Source of the DNA: Rhodoplanes sp.
Lineage (GTDB): Bacteria > Pseudomonadota > Alphaproteobacteria > Rhizobiales > Xanthobacteraceae
Assembly: GCF_013377085.1 (NCBI RefSeq)
Contig: NZ_JACAAX010000050.1
Span: 1-48,349 of the forward strand
Direction of reading: 5' to 3'
DNA: 48,349 nt
The position numbers were made by a program, and so were the translations under genes. Under the pieces are notes generated by a model that did not search any database, was not told the origin of the DNA, and was given only the letters and a program-made list of their open reading frames with translations. Of the stretch, positions 16,532 to 19,024 are shown piece by piece (position 1 is the first letter of the stretch; the number at the start of each line of letters is the position of its first letter).

Positions 16532-19024
16532 TCAGGCGATCAGCTTGTAGGCCGGGACCGTGAGGAAGTCCTCGAACTGCGGCGCCAGCGACAACCGGCG
16601 GAACAGATCGATGGCCTCGGGGAAGCGGCCGGCATCGTAGGCTTCGGCGCCGAGCTCGCCCCTCACCCGTTCCATCTCCTCGCCGAGCGCCCGATCGAAG
16701 AGCTCCGGCGTCACCGTGACGCCGTTCGTCAGCACGGCGCCGTATTGCAGCCACTGCCAGATCTGCGCCCGGGAGATCTCGGCCGTGGCCGCGTCCTCCA
16801 TCAGGTTGTAGATCGGCACCGCGCCGCGGCCGCGCAGCCACGCTTCGACGTACTGCACCCCGACCCGGATGTTGAGGCGGAAGCCCTCCTCGGTCTTGGT
16901 GCCCTCGTGGATGCGCAGCAGATCGGCCTGGGCGACCGTCACGTCCTCACGCTGGCGGTCGACCTGATTCGGCTGCGGCATCAGCCGATCGAACACCTCC
17001 TTGGCGACCGGCACGAGGTCCGGATGGGCGACCCAGGTGCCGTCGTGGCCGTCATTGACCTCGCGCTCCTTGTCGGCCCGCACCTTGGCGAAGGCCGCCT
17101 CGTTGGCCGCGGGATCGCCCTTGATCGGGATCTGCGCCGCCATGCCGCCCATGGCGAAGGCGCCGCGGCGGTGGCAGGTCTTGATCAGGAGCTGCGCATA
17201 GGCGCCGAGGAAGGCCTTGCCCATCACCACCTGGCCGCGGTCCGGCAGCACGTAGTCGGGCCGCTTGGCGAGCTTCTTGATGAAGGAGAAGATGTAGTCC
17301 CAGCGGCCGGCATTGAGGCCGGCGGCATGGTCGCGCAGCTCGTAGAGGATCTCGTCCATCTCGAAGCCGGCCGGCAGCGTCTCGATCAGCACCGTGACCT
17401 TGATCGAGCCCTTGGGGATGCCGAGCTTCTCCTGGGCGTAGACGAAGACGTCGTTCCACAGCCGCGCCTCGAGATGCGACTCGAGCTTGGGGATGTAGAA
17501 GTACGGCCCCGAGCCCTTGGCGAGCAGCGTCTTGGCGTTGTGGAAGAAGTACAGGCCGAAATCGAACAGCGAGCCGGAAATCGGCTCGCTGTCGACGGTC
17601 AGGTGCTCCTCGAGCAGATGCCAACCACGCGGTCGGATGATCAGCACGGCCGGGTTGTCGCCGATGGCGTAGCGCTTCCCCGAGGTCTCGTCGGTAAAGT
17701 CGATCTTGCCGTCCCAACGGTCGCGCAGGTTGAGCTGGCCCTCGATGTTGTTCGACCAGGTCGGCGAGTTGGCGTCCTCGAAGTCGGCCATGAAATGCGT
17801 CGCGCCCGAGTTGAGGGCGTTGACGATCATCTTGCGGTCGACCGGACCCGTGATCTCGACCCGGCGGTTCTGCAGGTCGGCCGGGATCGATCCGACGGTC
17901 CAGTGGCCCGAACGGACCTCCGCCGTCTCGGGCAGGAAGTCGGGCAGCTCGCCGGCGTCGAAGCGGGCCTGTCGCTCGGTGCGGGCGGTGAGCAGCTCGC
18001 GTCGACGCCCGTCGAAGCGGCGATGCAGCTCGGCCAGGAAGGCGAGCGCGCCGGGCGACAGGATCTCCGGATAGCGCGGCCCCATGCGGCCCTTGATCAC
18101 CACGCCCGGAACCGCGGCGCCGCGCACCGCGCGGCCGCGCCCACGCGGCTTGGAGTCGGGGCGCAGCGTCGAGGCCGGACGCGGCGCCGGCTTGAGGGCG
18201 GCCGCCGCCACATCGGCGACGGTGGCGACGACGCGCCGCACCGCCCGCTTCACCCGGCCGGCCGCCTGCTGACGGGCGAGGTCCAGGGTGCTTTTGGCAG
18301 GCGCCTTGTCGGCCGCCGGCTTGCCGGCCGGCTCGAGCGGCGAGGCCTTGGGCGCCGAGTCGGTCGACGCGGACTTGCCGGGCCGCCCCTTGACCGCTGG
18401 AGCCTTGGCCGGCGCCGCCGGCTTGCGCCGGGCGGGCGCCGCCCCCGAGGGCGCGGCCGCACGCGACGCCGCGGCGCGCGATGCGGCACCGGACCGCGTC
18501 GGGCGCGATGCAGGCTTGCTGCTGCGCGCCGAGGTCTTGGCGGTCTTGGTCGGCTTCGCCGTCTTGATTGGCTTCGCCGTCTTGGCGACCGGCTTCTTCG
18601 CCGACGACGCCTTGCCGCGCGCGGCCGACGTCACGGCCCCACGCTTCGGCTTCGACTTCACCGTCACCGCGGCCTTGGTGGCCGGCTTCTTGGACGTCGG
18701 CTTCTTGGAAGCCGGCTTCTTGGAAGCCGGCTTGCCCACCGACTTCGCGGACGGCTTCGCCGCAGGCTTGCGAGCCGGTTTGGCGACCGGCCTGGCCTTG
18801 GACTTCTTTGATGCCGGCTTGGACGCCGACTTGCCGGCGGCCTTGGGAGCCGCCCGCTTGGCGGCCCCCTTCGTGGTCGCCTTGCCAGCGACCGTCTTGC
18901 CGGTGGCCTTGGCAGCCGCCGTCCTGGGCTTCCGGATGTCGGACGCCGCCTCGGCGCCCTTCGCCCGCCCGGCGCTCTTTGCGCCCTTCTTCTTGTTCGA
19001 CTTAACGGATGCCTTGCCGACCAT
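16532..19024 (-). CDS. aceB: Malate synthase A with a histone H1-like N-terminal extension
   Basis: The C-terminal 520 or so residues (from about 307) align along their whole length with malate synthase A, which joins glyoxylate and acetyl-CoA to malate. Visible motifs are [63 protein letters not shown], and [11 protein letters not shown] with the presumed catalytic Asp744. The first 305 or so residues are not in the family: they are almost only Ala, Lys, Pro, Arg, Ser and Thr with [10 protein letters not shown] repeats, like bacterial H1 histones. The frame is unbroken, and the ATG at 19024 has GAGG nearby, so the extension looks translated. An internal ATG at 18085 (Met314, AAGGG upstream) would give a normal-length enzyme. 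It lies 24 bp after an H1-like gene and downstream of glcDEF, which fits glycolate use. The tail may bind DNA, RNA or polyphosphate; this is inference. Confidence 0.93.
18683..18734 (-). repeat. 15-bp tandem repeats inside the H1-like extension
   Basis: The 12-mer CGGCTTCTTGGA recurs at 18683, 18698 and 18713, a strict 15-bp period, with a partial unit at 18728. On the coding strand the units give [10 protein letters not shown] in a row (residues about 97-115). It shows how the tail can grow or shrink by slippage in multiples of five codons without loss of frame. Confidence 0.85.

Follow-up and report, generated by a model that had tools for sequence, protein, structure and literature searches.

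The window, a stretch of 48,349 nucleotides from Rhodoplanes sp., carries the same-strand cluster glcD-glcE-glcF-H1-like gene-aceB, whose last gene encodes malate synthase A preceded by a long histone H1-like N-terminal tail. The aceB frame is unbroken, starts with ATG and encodes 830 amino acids. The free H1-like protein encoded just before it contains 33 % alanine, 19 % proline and 17 % lysine and has a net charge of +48. In make-up, this protein and the tail are both like the Hc2-type H1-like proteins (PF07382, NF038052), from which they differ in profile score: the free protein reached 18 bits against a cut-off of 40 in Pfam (E 0.0034) and 20.1 bits against 135 in NCBIfam, and the tail gave no match. 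The features of the locus, together with a second tailed gene of the same genome, are shown in Table 1.

Table 1 Features of the aceB locus and the tailed dikinase gene (window positions unless stated)
Feature	Position	Strand	Basis
aceB, malate synthase A with N-terminal H1-like tail	16532..19024	-	open frame, Pfam, TIGR01344
Catalytic malate synthase A, residues 308-830 and stop	16532..18103	-	pLDDT, Foldseek, invariant residues
H1-like polycationic tail, residues 1-307	18104..19024	-	composition, pLDDT, in-frame tails of relatives
Predicted basic helix between tail and enzyme, residues 246-275, kept in genus	18200..18289	-	AlphaFold2, 5-member alignment
Putative ribosome-binding site GAGGT, 3 bases before tail ATG	19028..19032	-	same place in 5/5 genus members
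Separate H1-like gene, 188 aa, 24 bases before tailed gene	19049..19615	-	composition
glcF, glycolate oxidase iron-sulfur subunit	20134..21438	-	PRK11274, 453.5 bits, above cut-off 333
glcE, glycolate oxidase subunit, TTG start as listed	21446..22762	-	PRK11282, 275.9 bits, just below cut-off 284; order kept in relatives
glcD, glycolate oxidase subunit, start codon uncertain	22887..24482	-	PRK11230, 665.5 bits over 49-531, below cut-off 897; order kept in relatives
Tail of pyruvate phosphate dikinase	L214:1679-2017 = C41:19178-19516	+ on L214	TIGR01828, 1027 bits on part fetched

Just downstream of the tailed gene lies a frame for a Gcw_chp family protein (15115-16143, minus strand; Pfam E 2.6e-14), which by eye has a signal-like start. 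A 769-residue open frame runs antisense to the malate synthase gene (16502-18811, plus strand) and is probably a by-product of GC-rich codon use.

Malate synthase core and histone-like tail

Residues 308-829 of the 830-residue protein form a complete malate synthase A according to both Pfam, which placed MS_N at 308-369, MS_TIM-barrel at 460-705 and MS_C at 710-829, and TIGR01344, which matched residues 321-829 over profile positions 1-510 of 511 with 865.1 bits against a cut-off of 594.5. The residues R464, E548, D576 and D744 are invariant in 40 aligned rows and align to R166, E250, D278 and D447 of the E. coli chain 3cuz, which we take to be the catalytic residues of the E. coli enzyme. The description of the enzyme half in the initial annotation, as complete with its catalytic motifs, is in agreement with these results. 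AlphaFold2 predicted the core with pLDDT mostly above 90, and the best Foldseek match of the predicted core was again 3cuz (TM 0.97 by target). The whole catalytic core is like that of known malate synthases A (AceB; TIGR01344; 3CUZ of E. coli, 3CUX of Bacillus), and from its sequence the enzyme part is an ordinary malate synthase A, which condenses glyoxylate with acetyl-CoA, with activity predicted.

The two solved malate synthases A that were found have 13-17 residues before the family match (starts 14 and 18), whereas the fusion has about 300 extra N-terminal residues. According to the initial annotation such a tail is absent from the known family; this is true of the curated models and of both solved structures, but not of the nearest relatives: of 48 gene places examined in the bacterial family, 35 carry a tail. 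Since the curated family models begin behind the tail, tailed proteins may be read as having mis-called starts.

The tail (residues 1-307) consists of 27 % alanine, 18 % lysine, 11 % proline, 10 % serine and 9 % arginine, has a net charge of +74 and contains no phenylalanine, tryptophan, tyrosine or cysteine, a composition as H1-like as first described. The GC content at codon position 3 is 0.906 in the tail and 0.933 in the enzyme. In the AlphaFold2 model, pLDDT block means are 30-42 over residues 1-240 and no secondary structure is assigned to residues 1-245, these are followed by a predicted helix over residues 246-275, with block means of 53-76, then by a loose segment (276-302) and by the first strand of the enzyme at 308-310. 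The 830-residue protein had no HC2 match in Pfam or NCBIfam at E values up to 1, the first 608 residues had no Pfam HC2 match at E up to 5, and the tail matched no curated H1 model. The tail is irregular, with a single KPAAK-coding site and no regular tandem KPAA repeats. By composition and prediction the protein combines a long, disordered part rich in K, A and P with a folded domain, which is the arrangement of AlgP and PhaF.

Reading frame and start site of the tail

The sequence GAGGT was found 3 bases before the tail ATG in all five genomes of the genus that hold the gene, so that the ribosome site proposed for the tail is present throughout these genomes. In the four other genomes the gene is likewise tailed in frame (282, 297, 328 and 456 residues), which upholds the fusion itself; a fifth further genome of the genus, 58 % complete, gave no match to the enzyme query. 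Mononucleotide shuffles of the tail DNA contained 3.9 in-frame stops on average and were stop-free in 1.5 % of 2000 cases, and openness in one genome is therefore only moderate evidence for the tail; the comparison across genomes is the stronger evidence. Stop codons or frameshifts in the tails of relatives, which the initial annotation had named as grounds for rejecting the fusion, were looked for in the three tailed clades described below, and 34 of 34 rows were open (rows cut by contig ends were left out).

Of 36 tailed places (35 from the bacterial family, plus L031), 26 have a Shine-Dalgarno-like site before a start within the first 30 tail codons, and none was found there in the other 10; the count used whichever of several starts at the tail end was best and so slightly favours the tail. 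In several relatives the tail start lies within the preceding H1-like frame or a few bases past its end, an arrangement that suggests translational coupling. On these comparisons the tail belongs to the reading frame, with a ribosome site conserved in the genus, and we infer that it is translated in the cell. A mis-called start or a chance open frame was rejected on the shared ribosome site, the conservation of the frame in the genus and the retention of the tail in relatives; joining of an H1 gene to aceB by an assembly error or frameshift in one genome was rejected, the same joint being present in the four other genomes of the genus.

Tailed enzymes among relatives

The enzyme query matched 53 of 149 genomes of the bacterial family, a few of the matches being weak or fragmentary. 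Examination covered 48 gene places, leaving aside fragmentary genes (G001, G012, G126) and weak matches (G016, G059, G131), and the 35 tailed places among the 48 had tails of 55-495 residues, a tail being defined by a start at least 40 residues upstream, at least 10 % lysine and more than 62 % K+A+P+R+S+T. Two of the 13 untailed places are cut by contig ends; the 11 others have complete upstream DNA, and their enzymes presumably work without a tail. In an untailed Xanthobacter locus (L046) a thiamine-phosphate synthase gene takes the place of the H1-like frame. Among the loci retained from genome_contigs, 3 of 80 were tailed, one of them from a Pseudolabrys MAG. Outside the family, 113 of 347 genomes of the same order matched the enzyme, and none of the 20 places fetched, chosen mostly for long open frames, was tailed. 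At the level of the class, 90 of 385 genomes matched and 5 of 20 fetched places were tailed, with one more (L187) cut by a contig end. With this sampling of order and class, short tails among unfetched places would escape, and a gene in G211 (808-residue frame, 36 % identity) lies outside the sample. Seven further tailed rows of the tree come from other alphaproteobacterial lineages. The tail is not a quirk of one genome.

A tree of 158 rows was built after removal of L010, L126 and L187 (contig ends), L039, L046 and L088 (duplicates), and L045, L066, L127 and L128 (short core). Tailed rows fell into clade A, which includes the window (19 rows), clade B (3 rows) and clade C (12 rows), and into two more groups, of 2 and of 5 rows, from other alphaproteobacteria, and no untailed row was nested in any of them. 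The tree requires 5 changes of tail state, 3 of them forced by starred branches. On a 53-row tree, a single clade of A, B and C was rejected under the better model (p-AU 0.0025), as was a single clade of A and C (p-AU 0.001), while A and B as one clade (p 0.644) and B and C as one clade (p 0.082) were not rejected; the 53 rows were hand-chosen and the groups had first been seen on the larger tree, so that these p values are somewhat optimistic. By these trees the tail arose at least twice. Counts of changes alone cannot separate gain from loss; the origins are most simply gains, given that all tree rows labelled as other phyla are untailed.

The surroundings of the tailed gene differ between the clades. 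Of the 18 clade A loci with enough upstream DNA, 17 have an H1-like ORF separating glcF from aceB, counted by hand under a lax rule (none in L031, marginal in L142). In clade C the tails (55-113 residues) begin close behind glcF, and none of the 11 loci examined, out of 12 in the clade, showed a free H1-like frame (L123 has little upstream DNA and L021 is cut); L128, which is tailed and stands outside the tree, has a 116-residue tail and no free H1-like frame. The genus of clade B (L119, L121, L020) has tails of 466-495 residues, almost the length of the enzyme, with no glcF or free H1-like frame in the upstream DNA fetched and only weak glcF matches in its genomes.

Candidate roles of the tail and other H1-like frames

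Several bacterial proteins carry comparable ends. The KPAA-type ends of AlgP and PhaF bind DNA or are thought to and serve the placement of granules, and the histone-like end of PhaF ties storage granules to the nucleoid (PMC9239181, PMC13052382). AlgP of Pseudomonas aeruginosa, which has C-terminal KPAA repeats, binds DNA and is found on polyphosphate granules, shares with the fusion a long disordered K/A/P-rich tail on a folded domain, with KPAA-type words in both, and differs in that the tail of the fusion is N-terminal, irregular and attached to a metabolic enzyme, with binding predicted. The likeness to the PhaF phasin lies in the polycationic tail acting as a tether, a mechanism proposed for the fusion by analogy; the 830-residue protein gave no phasin match, and its cargo is an enzyme and not a granule protein. 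The PhaC2 polymerase of Cobetia is described with an extended C-terminus containing AAKP motifs and an HC2-domain hit, for which its authors suggest DNA binding (PMC8686332). PhaC2 of Cobetia and Halomonas is likewise an enzyme with an H1-like, AAKP-containing end, but in this case a C-terminal extension on a storage-polymer synthase of gammaproteobacteria, as against about 307 N-terminal residues on an enzyme of central metabolism. Titles and abstract openings of the open-access literature mentioned no tailed malate synthase or dikinase, subscription papers being mostly outside this search. Histone-like tails in bacteria have so far been a matter of granule and nucleoid proteins and, in print, of one storage-polymer synthase; the fusion is an H1-like tail, of a kind known on bacterial proteins, on an unexpected host protein.

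By analogy with the tails of AlgP and PhaF, we consider that there is about an even chance that the tail is a disordered polycation which tethers malate synthase A to the nucleoid, to RNA or to polyphosphate. The tail would bind polyanions without sequence specificity, whether chromosomal DNA, RNA or polyphosphate, and the enzyme would be retained on the nucleoid or polyphosphate bodies or gathered round them, probably next to the H1-like protein of its own operon. Holding of the enzyme on the nucleoid and binding of polyphosphate, both put forward in the initial annotation, are plausible on the same analogy, and polyphosphate kinase is encoded in the genome; no result pointed to its third proposal, sensing of glyoxylate near DNA. 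The tail is presumably dispensable for catalysis, as the core is the same in untailed relatives. A central enzyme that repeatedly gained and kept such a tail would mean that bacteria place ordinary enzymes by a simple charge tag.

It is possible, though doubtful, that the tail is a tolerated passenger without a task, formed when an upstream H1-like or low-complexity frame joined aceB and was lengthened by repeats. Tail length varies ninefold (55-495 residues) and tail sequence varies widely, and the aligned tails within the genus gave dN/dS of 0.52-1.26, a figure that means little with so unreliable an alignment. K-rich tails of at least 25 residues also come and go on pyruvate phosphate dikinase in the family, occurring in 24 of 50 places examined (the 30 best and 20 from genomes also holding malate synthase A; 98 of 100 genomes matched). 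The free H1-like gene that adjoins the tailed gene in the clade of the window is a possible source, and low-complexity sequence cannot show by alignment whether the tail derives from it. Against a passenger, none of the three tailed clades, 34 rows together, has an untailed row nested within it, and no free H1-like frame turned up next to the short clade C tails. In addition, the 75-residue stretch adjoining the enzyme gave dN/dS of 0.15-0.55 in the five genus members against 0.11-0.22 for the enzyme. Each genus tail offers 61-106 single-step changes that would produce a stop, of which none was seen at an enzyme dS of 0.17-0.42; by informal judgement, this can hardly be squared with a complete absence of selection. 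Net charge density was 0.21-0.42 per residue in 43 of 43 tails measured and aspartate plus glutamate made up at most 4 %, also in unrelated tails, lysine content being part of the rule by which tails were selected and acid content not. As far as these comparisons reach, the tail keeps its charge and not its sequence.

Cleavage of the protein or an internal start, giving an H1-like protein and a normal malate synthase as separate products, is improbable. The two solved enzymes, matching from chain residues 14 and 18, lack a tail, and codon 314 is ATG in all five genus members. Within the genus, however, no listed Shine-Dalgarno-like motif precedes this ATG or the nearby GTG codons, and only one of the 36 tailed places has such a site before a start that lies among the first enzyme codons or at most 30 codons ahead of them; the motif list did not contain AAGG, which in the window stands six bases before the ATG at codon 314. 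The residue at this first enzyme codon is methionine in only 12 of the 36 places, and in the model the first strand of the enzyme (308-310) precedes it.

A docking role of the helix (residues 246-275), by which the enzyme would attach to a membrane, shell or partner while the tail acts as a spacer, is very unlikely: the helix is predicted and kept in the genus, with a hydrophobic moment of 0.50 at residues 256-273, and basic helix-like segments precede the enzyme in L010, L014, L017 and L019 by eye, but this moment, while high, is not unique (0.46-0.52 in the top 5 of 50 shuffled tails) and no such helix was seen by eye in the short clade C tails. Targeting to a microcompartment was rejected, the shell-gene profile PF00936 having no match in the genome and matching 2 of 14 control genomes.

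The tether reading may be widened to a second enzyme, in that pyruvate phosphate dikinase of the same genome has a 113-residue H1-like N-terminal tail (the start choice for dikinases was lax, and the 251 residues given for this genome are over-extended). Malate synthase A and pyruvate phosphate dikinase both stand on the route from C2 compounds to phosphoenolpyruvate. H1-like tails might be a reusable electrostatic address by which the two enzymes are gathered on a shared nucleoid or polyphosphate scaffold in this alphaproteobacterial group, with the H1-like protein of the operon as co-scaffold; we regard this as a long shot. A tailed dikinase was found in 7 of 22 genomes with a tailed malate synthase against 0 of 7 with an untailed one, in a hand comparison of related genomes, and the link between the two tails is suggestive and weak. 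The dikinase counts argue for a lineage habit rather than a strict two-enzyme system. In related genera the same enzyme core occurs both with and without a tail, which constitutes a natural experiment, and the dikinase adds a second tailed enzyme to it.

Further H1-like frames were sought in the genome with several probes. A KPAAK codon probe gave 19 sites against 6 with the reversed control, of which five lie in the window (one in the tail, four in the neighbouring gene), one in the dikinase tail (C41) and one in a Lys-rich frame (C67); the other 12 fall in frames with at most 11 lysines in any 60 residues. A looser codon probe gave 110 sites against 75 in the control, and neither of the two same-strand clusters among the 100 places listed reached the threshold for an H1-like tail. 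When the tail served as query, its sole match was the tail itself (150 of 533 candidates scored), which makes such a search unfit for counting tails, and the number of tailed enzymes in the genome is a lower bound. A search with the HC2 profile gave three matches, none above the cut-off. The best of these, at 29.4 bits, is a free Lys-rich frame of about 38 residues (MPKKATTKK..., C67:142670-142780; L149, L213), which by eye adjoins the apparent end of gatB. At C40:40158 (L205) a frame has the short basic stretch KAAAKPAAKSVGKATPAKVRRGRPKKAR, which contains the AT-hook-like RGRPKK, and the domain that follows resembles, by eye, a site-specific recombinase.
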